Assembly: GCF_041435355.1 (NCBI RefSeq)
Contig: NZ_CP108443.1
Span: 124,001-188,000 of the forward strand
Direction: 5' to 3'
DNA length: 64,000 nt
DNA from: Streptomyces sp. NBC_01276
Lineage (GTDB): Bacteria > Actinomycetota > Actinomycetes > Streptomycetales > Streptomycetaceae
Positions 12,575 through 44,700 of the stretch are shown here, in pieces; position 1 is the stretch's first letter; every line of letters begins with the position of its first letter. The notes below the pieces were generated by a model. The model was not told where the DNA came from. It searched no databases and worked only from the letters and a program-made list of their open reading frames with translations. The translations under genes and the position numbers were made by a program.

Positions 12575-12880
12575 CCGGGACCTGCTTTCCGTGCCCGTGG
12601 GCACTGCGTACCGAAAGTCATGCCGAGTACGAGCGTCGGAGGTCCTCGTCCCCGGTCCGTCACCCGTAATGTCCAAACGTCGTCGTGACGGCGTCTTCAG
12701 AGCGTTTCCGGACCATTGCGGGAGCGTCTGTACGCCGGTCAGACCCGTGACTGCGGCGTGCCCGGAGCGCCGCGGAATTCGGGCGGGAGGCGCGGGACCG
12801 GGGCTTCGGGGCTGTTGTGGGGGCGGATGGAGGGGTGGGTGCGGATGCGTGCTCCACCGGCCGGTTGCACAGTGAGGGAT

Positions 12881-33185: not shown

Positions 33186-33602
33186 TCAGGCGACCTGCAG
33201 CTTCGGACGGCCGGTCGGGGTCGGCGGCGTCTGCTGGTACGCCGGCAGCTTCAGGTTGGGCAGGTCCCCCGCCTGGATGCGGACGAGAGTCGCGCGGAAC
33301 GCCGCCTCCATGTCCTGCGGGCTCTCGTACTTCGCCGCGAGAGGGTGCAGCCGGTACGAGTTGCCGTTGCGCTCTCCGCTGCGCGGCCTGAGGACGATGT
33401 TCAGGTCGCACAGGGGCGCCATGAGCCCGCTGACGGCCTGCGGCGTGACCCCGTACTCCGCCGCCATGTCCTTCTGCCGCACCGGGAGTGCTCCCCCGAA
33501 GTCGCTGCGGGAGACGAGGTACTGGAGGAACTTGACGGCGGACCCGGACAACGGCAGGGCCCAGATGCGCTCCGCGATGATCGGAGACATGACGTTAGCC
33601 AT
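33186..33602 (-). CDS. winged-helix protein, replication-type
   Basis: A 138-residue protein. Residues 15-75 form a winged helix (SGSAVKFLQYLVSRSDFGGA, VRQKDMAAEYGVTPQAVSGL, then IVLRPRSGERNGNSYRLHP as the wing). Its shape resembles MarR-like and RepL-type plasmid replication proteins. The C-terminal 40 residues are Pro/Leu-rich. Met1 or Met5 could be the start. It follows the larger winged-helix gene (33654-34361) on the same strand with 51 bases between, so they probably form one operon and may both bind origin DNA. Confidence 0.6.
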   Translation of the reverse strand: MANVMSPIIAERIWALPLSGSAVKFLQYLVSRSDFGGALPVRQKDMAAEYGVTPQAVSGLMAPLCDLNIVLRPRSGERNGNSYRLHPLAAKYESPQDMEAAFRATLVRIQAGDLPNLKLPAYQQTPPTPTGRPKLQVA

Positions 33603-33653
33603 GGGAGAGCCTTCCTCGTGAGCGGGTGCCCGCGAAGGGGCATGGCAGAACTA

Positions 33654-34361
33654 TCACCCGGTACGCCTCCGTCCGCGAAGGGCGGGTTCGACCTCGTACC
33701 CGAAGTCGAGGTCAAGCTCCTCCTGATGAGCGCCTACGGGGCCTACCGCGTACGGGAAGGCTTCCACATCGCGCTCGTGCCGGTCGGAGATCTCGGCAAG
33801 AACCTCGTGCTGGGCCGTGCTGTTGCCGTGGAACCACAACCGGACGTTGATCTGGATACGACCGTTGCCGGCCTTCTCCACCCAGTTGTAGCCGCACAGG
33901 GCTTGGACAGCTCGGTTGACCGTGGACCGCGTGATCATCTTGCCGCCCTTCTGAGCGGCGATCTTGTTCAGTCCGTCCGTGATCTCCTGCTGCGTGTACG
34001 GGGTGATGCCGGTCCCCGGCACCTGTCCTCCGGCCACGAAGAGGAAGACGCACAGCTGCGATTTGGTGATGCTGTTCGCGACGGCCAGCTGCGCCAGCAG
34101 CTGCGTGAACCAGTTGCTGGCCAGGCTGTATCCGGCTCCCCCGGCCATGTCGTGTACGGCGCGGGGGTCGGCCGCGTACTCGAAGTGGACTCCCTTGAGC
34201 CGACGTCGGCCTCCGGGATCGGTGGCCTCGGCCACCTTCTCCCCGAGCTGCTGGCCCAGGACCGCCAGGATGTCTCCGTACTCGGCTTCGCTTCCCGCGG
34301 CGGTGGGGGCGGGTACCGGCCGGGGCCCGCGCCGACGACGGGCGGGCGGATCAGATGTCAC
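33654..34361 (-). CDS. winged-helix replication initiator-like protein (RepL-like)
   Basis: A 235-residue protein with a GTG start and a strong AAGGAGG 6 bases upstream. Residues 85-175 carry a winged helix: LLAQLAVANSITKSQLCVFL, GITPYTQQEITDGLNKI, STVNRAVQALCGYNWVEKAG, then a beta wing with IQINVRLWFHG. This is the arrangement of RepL-type plasmid initiators, but I cannot prove homology. The first 30 residues are Arg/Pro-rich. Its leader overlaps CGCCTGAGTAAC (34373-34384, minus), the complement of both candidate RNAs, and AT-rich palindromes lie further upstream, so copy control may act here. Confidence 0.6.
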   Translation of the reverse strand: MTSDPPARRRRGPRPVPAPTAAGSEAEYGDILAVLGQQLGEKVAEATDPGGRRRLKGVHFEYAADPRAVHDMAGGAGYSLASNWFTQLLAQLAVANSITKSQLCVFLFVAGGQVPGTGITPYTQQEITDGLNKIAAQKGGKMITRSTVNRAVQALCGYNWVEKAGNGRIQINVRLWFHGNSTAQHEVLAEISDRHERDVEAFPYAVGPVGAHQEELDLDFGYEVEPALRGRRRTG

Positions 34362-35851: not shown

Positions 35852-36571
35852 GTGGAAGACGTCGCGGAGCGGCTGGCCCTTTCGCTGCGGCCGGACGACG
35901 GTGCAGACGCCGACCAGCCACTGCCGGACCATCTGGAGAGCTGGCTCGCGGTACGTGCGACCGTCCCGTGGCAAGAGGTCCAGAACAGGGATACGGGCGG
36001 ACCGGTCATCCCGTCGTGCGACGGCGCGGCGCAGGACATCCGTTCCATCGACGCTGCCGTGGACCCCTCGCGCGCAGAAGGTCTGCTCGCCGCTCTGAAA
36101 CTGGCGCGGGCAGACGCGGAGCGCGGTGCCCGGCTCGACTTCGAACTGCTCCGCGGCTGGCAGCAGCACGTTCTGGACGCTCCGCTGGCACCGCCGTTCC
36201 GCAGCCTGCCCGCCTTCGCGAAGGAGGGCAGGGAACGCTATGGCATCGGCCCGGAGGCCCGAGCCCGTCTCGATGCGTGCCCGGCCGAGAGCGGAGCCGA
36301 CGCAGGCCCGCCCCTCCCCCTGACCGTCCGTGCCGCACGTGCCCATCTCGACGTCTGCTTCTTCCACCTCTTCGACGACGGCAACGCGCGCTCCGCCTTC
36401 CTCGCGCTCGTCTTCGTCCTCGCCCGAGAGAGCGTCGCGCTGGACGACGTCCGCCTGATCCGCCACGTCACCTTCCACGCGGGCAACCCCCAGGACGCCC
36501 TCATCCTCGCCGGGTATATCGACCTCCATCTCGTGGAGACCCGCAGCAAGGCCTTCTCCCTCGGTTCGTAG
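35852..36571 (+). CDS. Fic-family protein
   Basis: A 239-residue protein. The core motif CFFHLFDDGNARSAFL (near 172-187; Fic consensus HxFxDGNxR) is intact, so AMP or another nucleotide could be transferred to a target protein. The surrounding sequence is helical as in Fic domains. The start is taken as GTG at 35852; no good ribosome-binding site or conserved N-terminus is visible, and no separate inhibitory helix was found. It lies 206 bases before parA on the same strand. It could be an addiction or defence protein of the plasmid, but this is inference. Confidence 0.65.
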   Translation: MEDVAERLALSLRPDDGADADQPLPDHLESWLAVRATVPWQEVQNRDTGGPVIPSCDGAAQDIRSIDAAVDPSRAEGLLAALKLARADAERGARLDFELLRGWQQHVLDAPLAPPFRSLPAFAKEGRERYGIGPEARARLDACPAESGADAGPPLPLTVRAARAHLDVCFFHLFDDGNARSAFLALVFVLARESVALDDVRLIRHVTFHAGNPQDALILAGYIDLHLVETRSKAFSLGS

Positions 36572-36777
36572 TCGCTGTCCGGGATCGCTGCCGGGGGGCC
36601 GGCCGGACGGGGGGTGGACCCGGTCTCCCACCGCTTCAGGGGCCGGGAGCTATGCGCCTGACGGTGGTCTGGGCGTGTAGGTAACCGCTCCGACTCCAGG
36701 GCAACTCGGGCATAGCCGGGCAAGATTCTTCGGTGTGCCTCTTCGCCTTCCCCCGAGAAGGTTAGTAAGGTACCCGC

Positions 36778-37938
36778 ATGACCGCTCCATACGATCCGGA
36801 AGTCAGGGAAAAGGTAGTTGCCAAGCTGCCGGCGTCCCTGCGGCAGGAACTCAAAGTCCGTGCAGCCCAGTTGGGCGTGGACATCCAGGACGCCGTGACC
36901 GAGGGGGTGCGCTCATGGCGCGCCGATGCCTCGGCGGCAACCCCCGTGGACACCTCGGGCGCCTCGTCGTTCTCCACCTACCTCCCCACCGGCCTGTACG
37001 GGGAGTTCAAGGACGACTGCCGCGCGCGTGAGATCCCGTACAACCAGGGCCTCGCCCAGTCCATCCGGCTCTGGCTCGACACCCACCCCTCCCCCGTCGG
37101 CCGCCGCCGCCCCGCGAACGAGGGCGCCCGCCGGATCGTGGTCTGCAACCAGAAGGGCGGTGTCGGCAAGAGCGCCATCAGCAACGGCGTCTCCCAGGCC
37201 CTGGCCGAGACCGGCGCCCGGGTCTGTGTCATCGACTTCGACCCGCAGGGGCACCTGACGCGTCACCTCGGCGCCGACATGCTCTCCATCAAGGAGCCCA
37301 GCCTCGCCAAGCACATGCTGGGCGAGATCGAAGGCCGCGTCCGCGACCTCCTCGTCCCCATCGAGCACGGGGTGTTCGCCGGGCGCCTCTTCCTCCTGCC
37401 CTCCTGCAAGGACGCCTTCCTCCTCGACGCCCGCCTGGCCACCACCCGGCACGTCCGCACCAAGGAGACCGCCCTGGAGAAGGCGCTGGAGGAACTGGAG
37501 AAGGAGTTCGACTACATCGTCGTCGACTGCCCGCCCAGCCTCGGCTACACCATGGACACCGCGCTCTACTACGCGCGTACCCGTGACGGCGAGGCCATGA
37601 AGACCTCCGGCATCATCGTCCCCGTCCAGGCCGAGGACACCTCCGCCGACGCGTACGACATGCTCACCGAGCAGCTTGAGGACCTCATCGACGACCTCGA
37701 CATCGAGATCGCCCAGCTCGGTTTCGTCGTCAACCTCTACGACAGCCGCAAGGGTTACGTCGTGACCTCCTCCCTCAACAGTTGGAAGGAGTTCGGCGAC
37801 CCGCCGGTCATCACGGTCATCGCCGACCTCAAGGAGCAGCGTGAGGCCGTGCGTGTGAAGCTGCCCCTGCTGCACTACGCACCCGACTGCGAGCAGTCCG
37901 AGGCCATGCGCGAGATCGCCCGGAGGATCGCGGCATGA
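36778..37938 (+). CDS. parA: ParA-type partition ATPase with two RHH-like N-terminal segments
   Basis: A 386-residue Walker-type ATPase. Residues 10-48 (VREKVVAKLPASLRQELKVR, then VTEGVRSW) and 67-102 (TYLPTGLYGEFKDDCRAREI, then SIRLWLD) look like two ribbon-helix-helix or CopG-like DNA-binding units. The ATPase follows: CNQKGGVGKSAIS (Lys126 onward, deviant Walker A), VIDFDPQG (Walker A' region near 149-156), and VVDCPPSLGY (Walker B). It segregates plasmid copies with ParB. ATG overlaps ParB start as ATGA. The N-terminal unit could autoregulate the operon by binding upstream. Confidence 0.85.
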   Translation: MTAPYDPEVREKVVAKLPASLRQELKVRAAQLGVDIQDAVTEGVRSWRADASAATPVDTSGASSFSTYLPTGLYGEFKDDCRAREIPYNQGLAQSIRLWLDTHPSPVGRRRPANEGARRIVVCNQKGGVGKSAISNGVSQALAETGARVCVIDFDPQGHLTRHLGADMLSIKEPSLAKHMLGEIEGRVRDLLVPIEHGVFAGRLFLLPSCKDAFLLDARLATTRHVRTKETALEKALEELEKEFDYIVVDCPPSLGYTMDTALYYARTRDGEAMKTSGIIVPVQAEDTSADAYDMLTEQLEDLIDDLDIEIAQLGFVVNLYDSRKGYVVTSSLNSWKEFGDPPVITVIADLKEQREAVRVKLPLLHYAPDCEQSEAMREIARRIAA

Positions 37939-39167
37939 GCAAGAGCGACCTCCTGGGTACCGGCGCCGCCTTCAGCAACGCCCGCCGTGCCGGCGGCCGC
38001 AGCGAGCGGGGCCGGGCCAAGGCCATAGCGCAGGGCGACGTACCGTCGTACGAGCTGATCCGGCTCCCCCTCGACCAGGTCTCCCCCAGCCCCCTCAACC
38101 CCCGCCGGAACTTCGGCACCGACGAGGACAAGACCCGTTTCGGCGAGGAACTGCGTCAGGCGCAGCTGTCCGCCTGTGTCGTCACCACTCGCAGCGCCTA
38201 TCTCGCCCTGTGGCCGGACCACGCCTCCCGGATCGGGTCGGCGACCCACGTCCTCATCAACGGTGAGCGCCGATTCCGCAGCGCCCTGCACGTGGGGCTG
38301 GAGTCCCTCGACTTCGTCGTACGCGACGACCTCGCCGCGTCCCGGACCGACTTCATCGACCACCTCCTGGCCGAGAACCTGGAGCGCGAGGACTTCGACG
38401 TCATCGAGCGCGCGCGTGGTGTGCAGCAGCTGGTGGAGTCCTGTGCCGAGGAGGGCCGAGAGCACGGAGCCAAGTCCCGCGCGGCGGAGCGGCTCGGGCG
38501 CTCGCCGTCCTGGGTCACCAACCAGCTGGTGCTGCTGGAACTGCCCGAAGAGATCCAGATCCGGCTCAGCTCCGGCGAACTGCCCGAGCGCGACGGTCGC
38601 CTCCTGGCCCGTGCGGCGAAGGACCGGCCGGGTGTCGGCGCGGCCGAGCTCCTCGGCTTCCTGCAGCAGAACAAGCAGCAGGAGGCCGAGGCGAAGGCGG
38701 CGCAGCGGGAGATCCTGCGGAGCGCCCAGGAGCACGTGGCGGACCAGACCGGGGGAGTGCCGCAGCCGCCGGAGCCGGCTGCGGAGGCGCCCCGACTTTT
38801 GTCCGCGGACAAAAGTCGGGACCCCGAGCCCCAGCTGCCGGTGCGTGAGGAGCCCTCTGCTCCGGTCGCCGAACGGGTTGCTGAAGCCCCGCTTCCAGCG
38901 CCGGTTCTTCCTCCCGCTTCCGCACCCGCTCCCGCTCCCGCTCCGGAGCCGGTTCAGCCGGTTCAGCCGGTTCAGTCGGTCGAGAGCGAGTACGCGGACG
39001 AGCGCGAGCCGGAGGGTGTGATTCCTTCCCAGACCCGGACCACGGACACGCCGTCGGTCTTGTGGCAGGACCCGAGGGCGATGTACGAGGCGATCTGGGC
39101 CAACATGTCGCCGAAGCACCGGGCAGAGCTGACGATGCTCCTGATCGAGAACAACCGGCGAGGCTAG
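37935..39167 (+). CDS. parB: ParB-type partition protein
   Basis: A 410-residue protein. The N-terminal ParB/Srx domain carries INGERRFRSALH (GERR CTP-binding motif, near residue 107-118) and PLNPRRNF (near 53-60), followed by the central helix-turn-helix (AERLGRSPSWVTNQLVLLEL near 184-203). A long Pro/Ala/Glu-rich linker (265-370) leads to a C-terminal dimerisation region. A 30-base perfect palindrome, one of the parS candidates, lies inside the gene at 38791-38820 and codes RLLSADKSRD in the linker. Start overlaps parA stop (ATGA), so the pair is one operon. Confidence 0.85.
   Translation: MSKSDLLGTGAAFSNARRAGGRSERGRAKAIAQGDVPSYELIRLPLDQVSPSPLNPRRNFGTDEDKTRFGEELRQAQLSACVVTTRSAYLALWPDHASRIGSATHVLINGERRFRSALHVGLESLDFVVRDDLAASRTDFIDHLLAENLEREDFDVIERARGVQQLVESCAEEGREHGAKSRAAERLGRSPSWVTNQLVLLELPEEIQIRLSSGELPERDGRLLARAAKDRPGVGAAELLGFLQQNKQQEAEAKAAQREILRSAQEHVADQTGGVPQPPEPAAEAPRLLSADKSRDPEPQLPVREEPSAPVAERVAEAPLPAPVLPPASAPAPAPAPEPVQPVQPVQSVESEYADEREPEGVIPSQTRTTDTPSVLWQDPRAMYEAIWANMSPKHRAELTMLLIENNRRG
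38791..38820. repeat. parS-like palindrome A, inside parB
   Basis: Perfect palindrome with left arm CCCGACTTTTGTCCG. Shares the 22-base core (arms ACTTTTGTCCG) with the other three sites. It falls in the linker-coding part of parB. Confidence 0.75.
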
Positions 39168-39187
39168 TTCCCGTCGACCCCTGCCAG

Positions 39188-39214
39188 GGCCCCACCGCAC
39201 TTAGCGGTGGGGCC
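39188..39214 (+). terminator. parAB terminator hairpin
   Basis: Arms GGCCCCACCGC and GCGGTGGGGCC with a 5-base loop ACTTA, 20 bases past the parB stop. Its right arm overlaps parS-like site B. Confidence 0.55.
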
Positions 39215-39244
39215 CGACTTTTGTCCGCGGACAAAAGTCGGGCC
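39211..39244. repeat. parS-like palindrome B
   Basis: Perfect 34-base palindrome, left half GGCCCGACTTTTGTCCG, 44 bases downstream of parB. It is the longest of the four. Confidence 0.75.
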
Positions 39245-39272
39245 CCCGGAAGGAGGGCCCGGGGGAGTGAGG

Positions 39273-39445
39273 TGAGCCGGCGACGACTGGAGCTGCTGGA
39301 CTTCGCAGTGCGGGACGGCCTCGGCCTTCCGGGCCGGGCTTCATCGAATACCTCCTCGCGGAAGGTCTGCTGGAACTCCCCGAGGAGATTGCGACGACGC
39401 TCAGCGCGGGGGAGCTGCCGAACGCGAGATGGCCTGGCACTGACA
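39273..39445 (+). pseudogene. fragment of a second parB
   Basis: Two stretches match parB in order: RLELLDFAVRDGLGL (compare GLESLDFVVRDDLAA in ParB) and, after one frameshift, FIEYLLAEGLLELPEEIATT followed by LSAGELPNARWPGTD (compare FIDHLLAENLERED and LELPEEIQIRLSSGELPERD). The helix-turn-helix coding part between them is deleted. It is a decayed parB paralogue, so this locus has gone through partial duplication or recombination with a related plasmid. Confidence 0.7.
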
Positions 39446-39491
39446 CACGTCCGGAGACGGAGCCTCCCGGGGCCGGCCTGGCGGTGGTGGA

Positions 39492-40145
39492 CTACGCGGG
39501 TTCCAGCAGGACGGACGGCAGAGTGCCGTTCGCGATCAGGTCCTTCGGCAGCGAGAGATCGAAGAACTTCTCGACCACCCCCAACGCTGTGCGGTGCACT
39601 TCCCTCCGGTCCCGCTCCGGGTCAGGCAGGCCGGCGGCGGTCAGCAGTTCCTGCAAGCGCGCAGCCGTCTCCGGGTCGCCGTCGACCCCGTCATAGCCCC
39701 AGGACGCGTCCAGGTGCAGGTTGCAGGCGCCCAGCAGGCGGCCGTCGTGAAAGTACGCGAACTGCGGTGGGACCGGCTTGCCGTTCTCCTCCTCGTACTC
39801 CAGCAGGCAGACGTGCGCGCCGTCACGCGATGCCGGGGCCAGTGGGCCGAACTCGGCCGCCCAGCCGCCGTAGGCGACCGCGTATGTCCAGTCTCCGGCG
39901 CGGCCGAGGCGCAGGCCTATGCCGTCGAAGGAATCGCCGTAGGTGTCGTCCATGAGCTCCAGAAGGGAGTCTCCGGTGTGATCCCCGACGGCCACGGCGA
40001 TGTGCCTCCCGTCGTACACGGTGGCTGCGAGGCGGGCGGCGAGCTCGTTCGGGGAGAGCCCGCGGGCGAGCACCACGTGGTAGCCGCCGAAGGCTATGGA
40101 TTGCGGGTCGGCCAGCCAGGTCGTTCCATGTGTCATGACGGTCAT
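39492..40145 (-). CDS. DUF6461-like protein
   Basis: A 217-residue acidic protein, starting MTVMTHGTTWLADPQSIAFG and with RLAATVYDGRHIAVAVGDHT and WTYAVAYGGWAAEFGPLAPA. It resembles the Streptomyces-wide DUF6461 group, of unknown role (name from memory). No catalytic motif, signal peptide or membrane segment. MTHGT three codons later is an alternative start with a better-placed AGGA. No operon partner on its strand. Confidence 0.6.
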   Translation of the reverse strand: MTVMTHGTTWLADPQSIAFGGYHVVLARGLSPNELAARLAATVYDGRHIAVAVGDHTGDSLLELMDDTYGDSFDGIGLRLGRAGDWTYAVAYGGWAAEFGPLAPASRDGAHVCLLEYEEENGKPVPPQFAYFHDGRLLGACNLHLDASWGYDGVDGDPETAARLQELLTAAGLPDPERDRREVHRTALGVVEKFFDLSLPKDLIANGTLPSVLLEPA

Positions 40146-40493
40146 CCTGACCGGTCCCTCTGACAACGCGGGCGTCGGGCTTCATGGGACTTCTTCCGAT
40201 CTGAAGTCCCGGCGGGCTGGGACGTTTTCGTTGTGCCCGGCGTGACTCTGGTCCCGAAGCAAGCATCGGCGCGTTCTCGGAACCGGGCGACGACACTCCG
40301 CTGCGCATCAGGCAATCCCACCAGGGAGCGAGAGACGTTCTCGAAACCTGCTCACCGTTGCCGAGGCCGCAGGGGTCCCCGGCAGGTGGACCGCAGACGC
40401 CTTTGACAGCATTTCGCGAGGCGAGGCCGATGACGACGGAGTGCCCGCAGCCCTCCCGGAGCGAGGTGCATCCCCGTCACACCGGGGATCGCC
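40146..40493. other. intergenic, no complete gene
   Basis: A short stretch (40345-40385) reads NLLTVAEAAGVPGRW in one frame, resembling the start of an excisionase-type helix-turn-helix, but the frame has no matching continuation. Otherwise nothing recognised. Confidence 0.3.
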
Positions 40494-40934
40494 CTAAATG
40501 ATCGAGAGCCGTACTTCTGCCAGGTAGCTGCTGGGAGCCTGGTCGGGCGGCAGTCTCACACCGATCTGCGGGCCCGGTTGCAGGGCTGCCAGTACCTCGG
40601 CGGCCGGGTATCCGAACAGGTCGATGTCGCGGAGGACCACCGGTACGGCAGACGGCCCGGTCGGCCTCGCCTCATACCGGTGCAGGTGTACGGCTGCGAG
40701 ACCGTGCTGGTCAAAGACGCTCGGGCTGAGGCGGTCCGAAGTGTCCCCGTAGGCGAGTAGTTCCAGGTCCTCGTAGCGGGCTGTGAAGGCCCAGCCGGTT
40801 TGGCAGATCCACGTTTCACGTACATCTGCCAGCGTCGAGACGGCCCAATGAGACTCCTGCTCGGACATCCCGAAGCGCAGAACGCCGGCATGGTGCGGCA
40901 GAACGAGGCCCGTTCCCGGCAGCAGGTCGAACAT
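40494..40934 (-). CDS. unrecognised protein
   Basis: A 146-residue mixed alpha/beta protein with no signal peptide or membrane segment. Sequence such as SEQESHWAVSTLADVRETWI and HRYEARPTGPSAVPVVLRDI has normal Streptomyces codon use. It could be a small immunity-like or sensor protein, but no family was recognised. Start uncertain: the ATG at 40934 has no clear ribosome-binding site. Confidence 0.5.
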   Translation of the reverse strand: MFDLLPGTGLVLPHHAGVLRFGMSEQESHWAVSTLADVRETWICQTGWAFTARYEDLELLAYGDTSDRLSPSVFDQHGLAAVHLHRYEARPTGPSAVPVVLRDIDLFGYPAAEVLAALQPGPQIGVRLPPDQAPSSYLAEVRLSII

Positions 40935-41008
40935 CTCTCGATGATGGCCGGACGCGTCGGCCGGATCAAGGCCTCAAGAATGCGGCAGGGTTGGTTCTGC
41001 TCGTCGCC

Positions 41009-41032
41009 GACTTTTGTCCGCGGACAAAAGTC
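41009..41032. repeat. parS-like palindrome C
   Basis: Perfect 24-base palindrome, left half GACTTTTGTCCG, in the decayed region. Confidence 0.7.
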
Positions 41033-41420
41033 CAGTGTCCTGCCTCAGCGGAGGTCGACGAGTCTCAGCGCGATCTCGCGCATGGGGTGCCGTGTGATCC
41101 CGGTACGCGGTTCGACGGCGAGGGGTGGTCGGTGGGCTCCAGCTCGACGAAGGGCCGCTTGCCGACCGGCCGCGTGTGGCGTAGGTCTTCAGCTCGGTGG
41201 TGCTCTCGGAGTAGATCGCGAGCCGGGCGCTGAGCCAGCCGAAGTAGGGCTTCTCGGCTTCGCGGTCCTCGACGTTCCACACCTCGAGGGCACGGGCTGC
41301 CGATCACAGATACCTGCACCAGGGTCTGCTGGGCCACCCCACTTCCGATGGTGGCCGGCCGGCTGCCACCGCCAGGTCGTCCAGAGCTGGAGGATCTTGA
41401 TCCGGTTGCTCTGAAGAACG

Positions 41421-41452
41421 CCCCGACTTTTGTCCGCGGACAAAAGTCGGGG
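41421..41452. repeat. parS-like palindrome D
   Basis: Perfect 32-base palindrome, left half CCCCGACTTTTGTCCG. Together with A-C it defines a 2.7-kb cluster around and after parAB. Confidence 0.75.
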
Positions 41453-41752
41453 CTGGGTTGCGACTGAGGTCCTGCCCCCAGAGTCCGGCGACGTCCTGGC
41501 GGGCGTGTACCCCCAACTCCTCTTGGAGGACGGCCGCTTGCGTGGAGCGGTACGAGTCGGGGGTCGGCCCCGCCGACCGCGCGACTTCAGCGCCACCGGC
41601 TGACGGGACTGGGGGAGGGGACCGGGGGAGTGGTGCCGCTGCCCCGCTGCCCCGGCTGGTCGCGGGCGGTGACGGTCGGCTGAGGATGCCCAGGAGTCAG
41701 AGGCCGGCTTGCTCGGCGTGCTCTGCGGAACCGGCCTGCGTCGGCCCCGCCC

Positions 41753-44700
41753 TCACACCTGCGCCGGCTGGAGGACCGCCGGCCACAGGCGTTCCTCCAG
41801 CGGGGTTCTGCGGTGGCGTACCGCGGCGTCGCGGAGGCCGGCCATGGCCACGTCGCGGTACGGGCTGGCCGCCAGTTCGCGGGCGGCGTCGGCGCGTACG
41901 TCCTCCTCCCGGCGGCGGGCGGCGGCCGTGTCGAGGGCCTTCTGGAGCATCGACTGGGGGCCGTCGGCCAGGCCCCCGATCAGCCGCAGCCAGTCCTCGC
42001 GGTCCGCGGTCGAGGCCAGCCGGGTCAGCGGCTTCTGCCACTTCCACCCCAGCCGGGTGACGTGGTGGGGGTCCGCCAGGCCGGAGCCCGCCGTCCGACG
42101 GGCCACCTCCAGCGCCACCTCGACGGCCTGACCGGGGTCGGACTCGCAGAGGCGTTCCGTCAGGAAACCGGCCCCCGAGTCGTGGATCGCCGCCGTGTCG
42201 GCCGAGAGCCGGATCTGCCCGGCCACGGTGTCTACCGCCGCGGCGACGGCTTCCCGCGTGCCCAGCGGGGCGAAACGGCAGCGGAGGAACGAGCGGAGCA
42301 GAGCGACCTCCCCGGCCGAGGCGTCCGGGACGACCGCCGAGGCCAGGGCCGCGTCCAGTTCCTCCCAGCCGTGCTCGCCGCCGACGGCCGCGACCGAGGA
42401 GACGTCGTGGCCGTTCCAGTGCCGCAGGACTTTCGACGCGGTCGACCACCGCCCGTTGCCCACCTTCGCCGCCAGCCGTGCCTGCACCGCGAGCGACGGC
42501 CGGTCGGCGGCGCCCAAGCGGACCACGTCGCCCCACAGGCGCAGCGCCGCCAGCTTGGCGTTCGGATCGGGACACGGGCCCCGGTCCCACAGATCGGCGC
42601 ACCACTCGGCCAGATCCGGCCCGAACCGGTCGAACAGCGCACGGGCCGGGGCGGCGGCCGTACCGGGCTGCTCCACCGTGCGCTTGGCCAGGGCGGCGAG
42701 CCAAGGGATGTCGGCCGTCGGCACCCGCACGCGCAGTGCCTCCATGACCAGCCGATGGGCCTGGGGGGCGTGATCGGTGAAGGTTGCCTGGACCACCCCG
42801 ATCATCGTGTCGCGGTTCCGGGGGCCGTGGTACGGCCTTCCGCCCCGGAACTCCGGCCACGCGTTGCGGCCTTGGACCAGCTGCGCGTGCCTGAGCCCCT
42901 CAAGCGTCCGCCAGCGCTCCAGCGCGACGACCGCTCTGGTGTGCCCGGACGCGGCCAAGGGGACGAGGAGCTTGGTGGCGCCGTCGAGTGCCAGGAAGGT
43001 GTCGTCGATCCTGTCGTTCCCCCACTGGCGACCCTTGGAAGGCCAGTGCACGATCTCCTTCAGCCGGGCCGGCGGCAGCTGGGCCAGGCCGGTGACCGCG
43101 AACCGCAGGGCCGGGGATCCCGTACGGGGGCCCCGGTCGCCCCGCGTGTCGAAGACGTCGAGCCGATCGGCGCACCAGGTGGCGGCCGCACGTGTCCCCG
43201 GGTCGTCGGCGGGCTCACGGAGCAGGGGTGGCAGCAGGAAGGCCGCGATGGTGCCGACCGTGTCCCGGCCCCGGCACAGCGCCACGGTCTCCTCCAAGAG
43301 CTCGGGCACACCGTCGGCTGCCTCGCGCAGCAGCGTGCCGACCCGGCCGAGCACCGCCCGCAGCCGGGAGTTCGGTACGTCGAACGGCTTCTTCCCCTCG
43401 GCCGCCAGGTCCCGGATCACCTCCCCGGGTGACCTGCCGGGGGTGGAGAGGGCGGCGGCGAACCAGTGGGCGTCCAGCGCAGCCTGCGCCTGCCTCCACT
43501 CCTCCACCGGCGTACGGGCCTCCCACGTGCCGGAGCCGCTTCCCTCCTGCTCGTCCCCGCCTCCGGCCGGAAGCCCCCTGTCGGTACCGAGCCCCCTGTC
43601 GCTACCAAGACCCTTGTCGGTACCGAGCCGCTGGGCGATCCGGGCCGCGACCGGGAAGAGCGCGTCCCACTCCGGATCCCCGGCACGCCGGTGGATGACG
43701 GCCACACACTGGAGGGCCTGGGAGCGGGAGCGATGGTGTTCGGCCAGCGCGAGCAGCTCCCGCATGCGTTCGGCCGTCCACTCGCCGCGGTGCTCCGCCA
43801 GGGCCTCGATCAGCCGTACCGCCTGATTGCCGTGGCTGCTCGCGCTGTTCGAGTTCAGGTTGACCAGCCACGACCACAGGCAGTGCTCGCCACCGCAGCC
43901 GCTCGGCGCCGCGCCCTGCGGGTCCGGCTCGCGCCTGAGACAGCGCACCGGGTCGGTGCAGAGCTCGCGCAGGAACGTCCAGACGACGTCCGCGGTCCTC
44001 CCGTCCAGCCGCCCGAACCTGCACAGCACGTCCAGGACGCGCCACTCCACCCGGGCGCCGGGGCGGGAGCCCCGCTTGAGCACGACGCCGAGGTCCTCGG
44101 CCACCCGCTCGGGGTTCGTGTGCTCGCGGGTCGGCAGCAGCGCCAGTACCTCGCGCACCATCGCCGGTGACGCCTTCTCCCGCAGGTACCGGTGGAACAC
44201 CGCGCGGATGTCGCTGTACAGGTCGTCCGGCAGCAGCGCGCAGGCCCGTACCGCGATCACCTGGAGGTCGACGTCCTCGCTCCCCAGGAGTTCGCGGAGC
44301 AGCTTCTCCGCGTCGTCCCGTACGCGGCCCCTCGCGCGCATGCCCTGCACCAGGGCCTGTTCCCCGACCACCGCCCGCAGGTAGTCGTCCGGGTGCTCCG
44401 CCAGGTGCCGGCCCAGCGCCCCGTAGTACGACTGCTTCTTCTCGGAGGCGAGGCGCACCAGGCAGCGGCCCGCCGCGTACTCGAACAGCGTCTGGTGGAA
44501 GAAGTGGACGCTGGAGCGACGGTCGGCCGTACCCGCGACCACGCTGCGCCGGTCGAGCTGTACCAGCAGCTCCAGCGGATCGTCATCGCCGGCCTCGGGG
44601 TTCGCCCCGGACAGGCGGCCGACCGCGTCCGCGACGGGCAGCGCCACCGCCCCGTCGTGCAGCATGAGGCGGGCGAGGGACTGGGCCGGCCAGGAGAGGT

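Follow-up and report, generated by a model that had tools for sequence, protein, structure and literature searches.

Four long perfect palindromes lie in and behind the parAB genes of Streptomyces sp. NBC_01276, on a 583,105-bp contig (C2, NZ_CP108443.1), and the question they raise is whether they form the centromere, parS, of the replicon that carries them. They were noticed in a stretch of 64,000 nucleotides, called here the window (C2 124001–188000). C2 belongs to a five-contig genome of 9.37 Mb and, as a contig of this size beside one of 8.2 Mb (C1), is probably a giant plasmid. The initial annotation had proposed a new parS family, and our analysis supports this centromere reading: in relatives the corresponding places carry an identical palindrome or a clade-specific version of it, the letters of which follow the recognition helix of ParB. 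We consider it very probable, judging from sequence comparisons, that the four palindromes serve the adjacent plasmid operon parAB as its parS sites; the operon would encode a type-I helix-turn-helix (HTH) ParABS system with a DNA specificity of its own. Because the letters change in step with the ParB residues predicted to read them in related plasmids, the palindromes are almost certainly the plasmid's own centromere.

The palindromes and their gene neighbourhood

The two genes and the four candidate sites are the following:

36778..37938, + strand: parA, Walker-type ParA ATPase of 386 amino acids (Pfam AAA_31, 2.2e-28; CbiA, 2.2e-16)
37935..39167, + strand: parB, HTH-type ParB of 410 amino acids (Pfam HTH_ParB, 4e-10, above the cut-off)
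38791..38820, no strand: candidate parS site 1, a 30-bp perfect palindrome within parB
39209..39246, no strand: candidate parS site 2, a 38-bp perfect palindrome whose core begins 50 bp past the parB stop
41009..41032, no strand: candidate parS site 3, a 24-bp perfect palindrome
41420..41453, no strand: candidate parS site 4, a 34-bp perfect palindrome

There are exact copies of the 22-bp core ACTTTTGTCCGCGGACAAAAGT at 38795, 39217, 41010 and 41426. At up to three mismatches there is no further match in the window (0 expected from 100 dinucleotide shuffles) or in the whole 9.37-Mb genome, and all four copies fall within 2.7 kb. The number of sites and their perfect symmetry stand as first annotated; the lengths, given as 24–34 bp, range in fact from 24 to 38 bp, the core common to all four is 24 bp long (GACTTTTGTCCGCGGACAAAAGTC) rather than 22, and of the start positions 38791 and 41009 were right, whereas 39211 and 41421 were off by one or two bases (39209 and 41420). 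Sites 3 and 4 lie about 1.8 and 2.2 kb beyond site 2, and sites 2–4 are all downstream of parB, which bears out the clustering at and after parB, with one site inside the gene, that had been described. The sites are also, as claimed, unlike the chromosomal type of parS, the 14-bp consensus of which, GTTTCACGTGAAAC, has no match in the window at up to two mismatches. As a control, 28 ten-kb pieces without parAB were searched, and none carries a perfect-palindrome family of at least three copies.

Multi-copy long palindromes are reminiscent of repetitive extragenic palindromic (REP) elements, and a dispersed or mobile repeat of that type might have landed at parAB by chance; the orphan copies of the core seen on some chromosomes (below) could be read in this way. 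Such a repeat is expected in many scattered copies. The four copies within 2.7 kb refute it for this genome, the copies in relatives lie mostly at parAB, and the flanking letters vary between copies of the core. We rejected this explanation and regard its probability as negligible.

A Walker-type ParA is encoded beside parB (the parB start and the parA stop overlap by four bases), the ParB is of the HTH type and inverted-repeat sites are found at parAB; by these computable criteria the system is predicted to belong to type-I HTH ParABS. ParB scores 62.8 bits against TIGR00180 (cut-off 58.45), its best solved relatives in the PDB are Spo0J (1vz0, 1.5e-13) and Caulobacter ParB (6t1f, 6e-12), and its residues 41–248 align with Spo0J/ParB. 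The motifs GERRFR and ENLERED are present in it and invariant across five aligned ParBs; the N-terminus of the predicted model is poor. Foldseek placed ParB/Spo0J/Noc structures at the top (best 1vz0, E 3.8e-6), with TM-scores that are low because a large part of the model is poor: it is confident only in the DNA-binding part (about residues 150–270) and the C-terminal helices, and residues 272–374 have a predicted local distance difference test score (pLDDT) below 50. The ParA model, with a mean pLDDT of 41, was too poor for use. By eye, the first 110 or so residues of ParA (window 36778–37120) look like two ribbon-helix-helix units preceding the ATPase; there is no Pfam match in this part.

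The region of about 2.6 kb past parB (39167–41750) contains three of the four sites. Two minus-strand open reading frames in it, 39492–40166 and 40494–40934, appear plausible by eye. Rfam gave no match across window positions 36000–43000. Both ends of C2 start with a GC-rich hairpin-like sequence and have in common a 43-bp imperfect terminal repeat (88%), which is weak evidence for a linear replicon.

Distribution of the exact core

The exact core is present in 14 stretches of a collection in which 84,980 species are represented by one genome each. Eight of them contain parAB, with ParA 92–95% and ParB 68–73% identical to those of the window, and a further four are found on these parAB contigs. 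One of the other two comes from an assembly (ISL-43) that has parAB on another contig, and the last from S. goshikiensis, a species with a plasmid carrying this parAB. The initial annotation had named frequent occurrence of the core far from partition genes as the observation that would speak against a centromere; with 12 of the 14 stretches on parAB contigs, this check does not contradict the centromere reading. Among 392 Streptomyces genomes, the core is found at up to one mismatch in 10 and exactly in eight, of which six have this parAB. Two stretches chosen for imperfect matches (L067 and L058) have neither a parAB match nor an exact site.

Site letters and the recognition helix of ParB

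Of 68 ParB-matching loci, 21 were dropped (ParB below 46% identity or 200 residues), which left 47 loci with 42 distinct ParBs; this set is not unbiased, because many of the loci were found via the site. Each of the 47 loci has one 16-mer type of site within 6 kb of parB, and its letters correspond to residues encoded in the window by a short segment of parB:

38505..38522, + strand: codons for P191-S192-W193-V194-T195-N196, the start of the predicted recognition helix (191–202), in the confident part of the model

Across the 42 ParBs, P191 goes with TTTG, and R191 or K191 with GTTG. The combination of S192 and N196 is accompanied by TGTCC in 37 of 37 ParBs, and A192 or H196 by TGACC in five of five: three carry A192 (the ParB of genome G309 and both terminal copies in G157) and two H196 (NBC_00868 and NBC_01294). 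Within the 95 alignment columns up to residue 245 that are invariant in the TGTCC ParBs, only 192 and 196 show a change to one and the same residue in two or more TGACC genomes. A tree calculated with the motif masked has base and motif changing four times each and in the same groups (the placement of L145 on this tree is unsure); at least three putative specificity switches are visible on supported branches. ParA is 95% identical between the NBC_00868 plasmid, with H196 and TGACC, and the window, with N196 and TGTCC. A scan of 394 genomes of the family for the TGACC form found three genomes with one site each.

There is also a structural counterpart. P191 aligns with R173 of Caulobacter ParB and N196 with N178; R173 bonds guanine 1 of parS and N178 contacts parS (Jalal 2020, PMC7383237).

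A first rule, by which TGACC requires H196, failed on G157 and G309, which carry A192, and was rejected. The revised rule, A192 or H196, was fixed in advance of a test on seven more plasmids with GTTGACC-like sites, namely the Streptomyces records with several places among 30 of 405 matching records. All six testable plasmids comply: four have the helix KAWVTN, one RAWVTN and one RAWITN, and the RAWITN plasmid has five in-gene sites, all of them one-mismatch palindromes. For the seventh (L172), the stretch contains a single ParB, of 28% identity, which is accompanied by a palindrome family of its own.

Sites inside parB

Site 1 of the window codes for LLSADKS, residues 288–294 of ParB, inside the predicted disordered linker (272–374). 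This arrangement recurs: 41 of the 42 distinct parB genes have at least one site inside the gene, at 58%–93% of its length, the exception (L145) being a short ParB of 231 amino acids. Loci chosen because their parAB stretch or their ParB is similar give the same picture, with an in-gene site in 17 of 17 (L038–L047, L061, L118–L123); the DNA query that yielded L038–L047 included the sites, and the other seven were found with a ParB protein query.

After removal of three near-duplicates (L009, L061, L152), 87 in-gene sites remain, and 83 of them share a reading frame. The translation is mostly [LV]LSAD[KN]; the others are close variants, for example MLSADN, or LLTAVK and VLTAVN for the TGACC form. 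Since sites outside parB have these letters too, and four copies within the gene are in other frames, selection presumably acts on the DNA, and the favoured frame would be the one that best suits high-GC codon use. Predicted in-gene parS sites are a general rule in these plasmids.

The wider family of sites

At most of the other plasmid-type parAB loci examined, palindrome discovery returned a private repeated perfect palindrome. Close relatives keep the centre CCGCGG, of which the version in the window's clade is ACTTTTGTCCG, with other arms: TTTTGACCG or CCTTTGACCG, TGTTGTCCG, GTTGACCG, CTTTACCG and GTATACCG. More distant ParBs have odd-length sites of 13–15 bp with centres such as ACGCCGT. 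A 16-bp form, KTTGWCCGCGGWCAAM, has matches in 39 of 392 Streptomyces genomes, against two of 392 for the reversed control pattern, and 25 of these 39 genomes have a ParB at least 46% identical to that of the window within the fetched stretch (mostly about 14 kb). In the 61 genomes for which ParB was searched as well (with no more than 30 candidates scored in each), the 16-bp form is present in seven of seven genomes with a close ParB (at least 56% identical) versus one of 54 without (Fisher, p 1.8e-8).

Scans of 12 whole plasmid records found sites in all 12, mostly near parAB. One plasmid (W09) has sites up to about 30 kb from parAB, and another (W03) two sites 6–11 kb off, across the start of the circular record. 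Locus L119 carries a single copy.

The 7.17-Mb contig of G157 has a plasmid-type parAB with GTTGACC sites in two copies (L151 and L152), about 50 kb from each end. The copies are near-identical (99.9% over 8.5 kb), and what looks like a plasmid-type centromere lies here inside apparent chromosomal terminal repeats.

A second large group of plasmid-type ParBs (L062–L066, L069, L125–L132, L137, L172), most with WVSQR or WVTQR helices, was also seen. It has odd palindromes of 13–15 bp, such as TTAACGCCGTTAA, CTAACGCCGTTAG and ATTACGCCGTAAT, often with a copy in parB; L129 of this group has no repeated palindrome. The NBC_00868 plasmid (L038), whose parABS is of the TTTGACC type, holds a single 31-bp palindrome of the CTAACGCCGTTAG type at 12795–12825, possibly the trace of a second system.

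Symmetric arms and the terminator question

Symmetry often extends past the core. Opposite bases beyond it pair at 0.46–0.92 over the first three offsets, against a background of 0.28–0.30; inside parB the excess is gone by the fourth or fifth offset, and outside it persists longer. In the window's clade, arms average 16.0 bases outside parB versus 12.5 inside (26 and 22 sites, p 6e-4). The corresponding comparison in the R191 clade is not significant (54 and 59 sites, p 0.15), nor is that between sites in any gene and the rest at 11 annotated plasmid loci (p 0.11). Perfect palindromes of 72 bp (L121, 8075) and 68 bp (L139, 8905) are centred on the core, and their arms are mutually unrelated. 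The symmetry of the outer arms may reflect hairpin-templated mutation or a function of the hairpin.

Such arms, which differ from site to site, together with the structure next to site 2, would also fit another explanation, in which the palindromes act as bidirectional transcription terminators or mRNA hairpins and not as centromeres:

39187..39215, + strand: 12-bp GC hairpin abutting site 2, forming with the TTTT of the site an intrinsic-terminator-like structure after parB

Site 2 supplies the T tract to this hairpin, a 9-bp hairpin mirrors it on the minus strand, and the plus-strand layout of hairpin plus site recurs after parB in four loci (the window, L005, L011 and L042). The combination is, however, restricted: in the window a hairpin abuts site 2 on either strand and site 1 on the minus strand, and sites 3 and 4 have no match. 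Among window-clade sites outside parB, six of 26 have the hairpin on the plus strand and one of 26 on the minus strand, compared with 69 of 3000 random positions. Copies lie within coding sequence in 41 of 42 parB genes, and convergent intergenic sites are not longer-armed than tandem or divergent ones (p 0.42). Moreover, a terminator role would neither fix identical core letters nor link them to the ParB helix. Termination as the main function was rejected and is very unlikely; at most, some sites, such as site 2, would have it as a secondary use.

Weighing the evidence

A number of observations weigh against reading the palindromes as parS sites recognized by this helix. Only three independent pairs are on well-supported branches (sign test, p 0.25). 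The switch between P191 and R/K191 is a single change on the tree, and columns 6, 175 and 227 likewise separate the two groups; for these reasons, the support for position 191 is structural. The two-residue rule was formulated after the first one had failed, and its six successes amount to fewer than six independent tests, because two of the ParBs are 91–92% identical to that of G157; the lineages involved may be few. The ParB_N match of ParB, at 21.0 bits, is under the Pfam cut-off of 26.3.

Further points concern sites without a partner. Of the 39 genomes with the 16-bp form, 14 have no close ParB in the fetched stretch (G053, G073, G080, G087, G090, G165, G167, G233, G252, G282, G299, G307, G334 and G344). 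Eleven of them hold one copy (asymmetric in five), G053 and G087 two, and G073 three; some of these matches may be chance or relics. One plasmid (W06) has a non-cognate copy about 200 kb away. The exact 22-bp copies of G053 and G073 sit on chromosome-sized contigs with no intact parAB nearby: G073 has three sites, one overlapping an 89-residue parB remnant, and G053 has no parA or parB match within 20 kb around the core. These orphan copies are part of perfect palindromes of 36–46 bp (G073: L049, 5077 and 16570, and L050, 8981; G053: L051, 9916).

The last point is a gene pair that recurs 1–4 kb upstream of parA in the window's clade. In the window it occupies 33189–34361 on the minus strand, about 2.4 kb upstream of parA; the products have about 234 and 138 amino acids and, in the L043 copies, match RepL and a Crp-type HTH of Pfam below the cut-offs. 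The larger gene is present in six of seven P191 loci (the window, L038, L039 in part, L041, L042 and L043; the short L040 stretch lacks it). A different plasmid protein, such as a product of this putatively DNA-binding pair, could therefore bind the sites, parB being a neighbour by coincidence. The pair is, however, found in none of 18 R/K191-type stretches. Sites of this kind are present at R/K191 loci that lack the pair, so that it does not account for the family, and the covariation of the site letters is with the ParB helix. Comparison of neighbouring genes showed parA and parB alone to be common to the P191 and the R/K191 loci checked. We give the binding of the sites by another protein scarcely any chance; the pair may be the replication module of the window's clade. 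The assignment of the palindromes to ParB remains the one that we prefer.

Comparison with known systems

The closest described case is SCP1 of Streptomyces coelicolor, where two HTH ParBs bind inverted repeats of 13 and 19 bp, 15 bp sufficing for the second (McPhillips 2026, PMC13245405). Three copies of each repeat lie around the operon, one parS1 being inside parB1, the sites were demonstrated by chromatin immunoprecipitation sequencing and biolayer interferometry, and sliding depends on cytidine triphosphate (CTP) (PMC13245405). ParABS1 and ParABS2 resemble the system of the window in being of the type-I HTH kind on a Streptomyces plasmid (linear for SCP1, possibly linear here), with several identical inverted repeats around the genes, one copy within parB (parB1 in SCP1) and a specificity, predicted for the window, apart from that of chromosomal parS. 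By description, the 13-bp and 19-bp SCP1 sites differ from the even, 24-bp, CCGCGG-centred core of the window. At the glutamate position of P-motif 2, the SCP1 ParBs have S109 and H110, whereas the window ParB reads GERRFR.

Sites within the gene of the binding protein are known from two other plasmids. SCP2 ParATS has an 18-bp parS inverted repeat within the gene of the DNA-binding ParT (PMC12260392); ParT is without a CTPase domain; the window ParB aligns with Spo0J/ParB over residues 41–248. SpdA2 of pIJ101 is a Streptomyces plasmid stability protein with a palindromic site, sps, in its own gene; it is a rolling-circle plasmid protein, and the abstract does not describe a ParABS (PMC4170104). 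Chromosomal ParB–parS and Noc with its binding site NBS have the same HTH domain, and Caulobacter residue 173, which corresponds to 191 in the window, is likewise paired with the outermost base (PMC7383237). The chromosomal site, mapped in PMC8743542, is however GTTTCACGTGAAAC, and by our count the base read is seventh from the centre, versus eighth in the window family.

A text search of a literature library with the motif strings, covering neither supplements nor figures, returned no paper, and a topical search found no title or start of an abstract describing this ParB–parS family or helix code. As SCP1 and SCP2 show, the kind of system and parS inside a gene are already known. What appears to be new within it, as far as the sequences tell, is the DNA specificity and an unusually clear record of covariation.

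Implications for plasmid partition in Streptomyces

From the features that were computed, namely the sites, their association with parAB, their recurrence, also inside parB, and the matched changes of residues 191, 192 and 196 and the site bases, we infer binding, clamp loading and segregation. Each ParB of a dimer would read one half-site via the helix beginning at P191. ParB would load at parS, close as a CTP clamp and spread onto neighbouring DNA, and the ParA ATPase would then move the complex, so that sister plasmids separate.

It seems somewhat more probable than its opposite that the window belongs to a large family of CCGCGG-centred parS sites of Streptomyces plasmids with several features in common. 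Two variable positions of the half-site would be read by ParB residues 191, 192 and 196, and one substitution together with a matched change of every site would give rise to a new specificity group. The sites would double as in-frame [LV]LSAD[KN] repeats in a disordered linker, and the symmetric arms of up to 72 bp would reflect a second, structure-level constraint or hairpin-driven mutation. We know of no such constraint on the arms, or mutational process of this kind, for parS.

The association of these sites with parAB offers a simple route to candidate parS sites in the giant plasmids of Streptomyces, and at least one chromosome-sized contig appears to have plasmid-type centromeres close to its ends. 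A natural series of ParB–parS pairs, set apart by one or two residues in the helix and one or two bases in the half-site, would allow direct tests of how centromere specificity and plasmid compatibility evolve.

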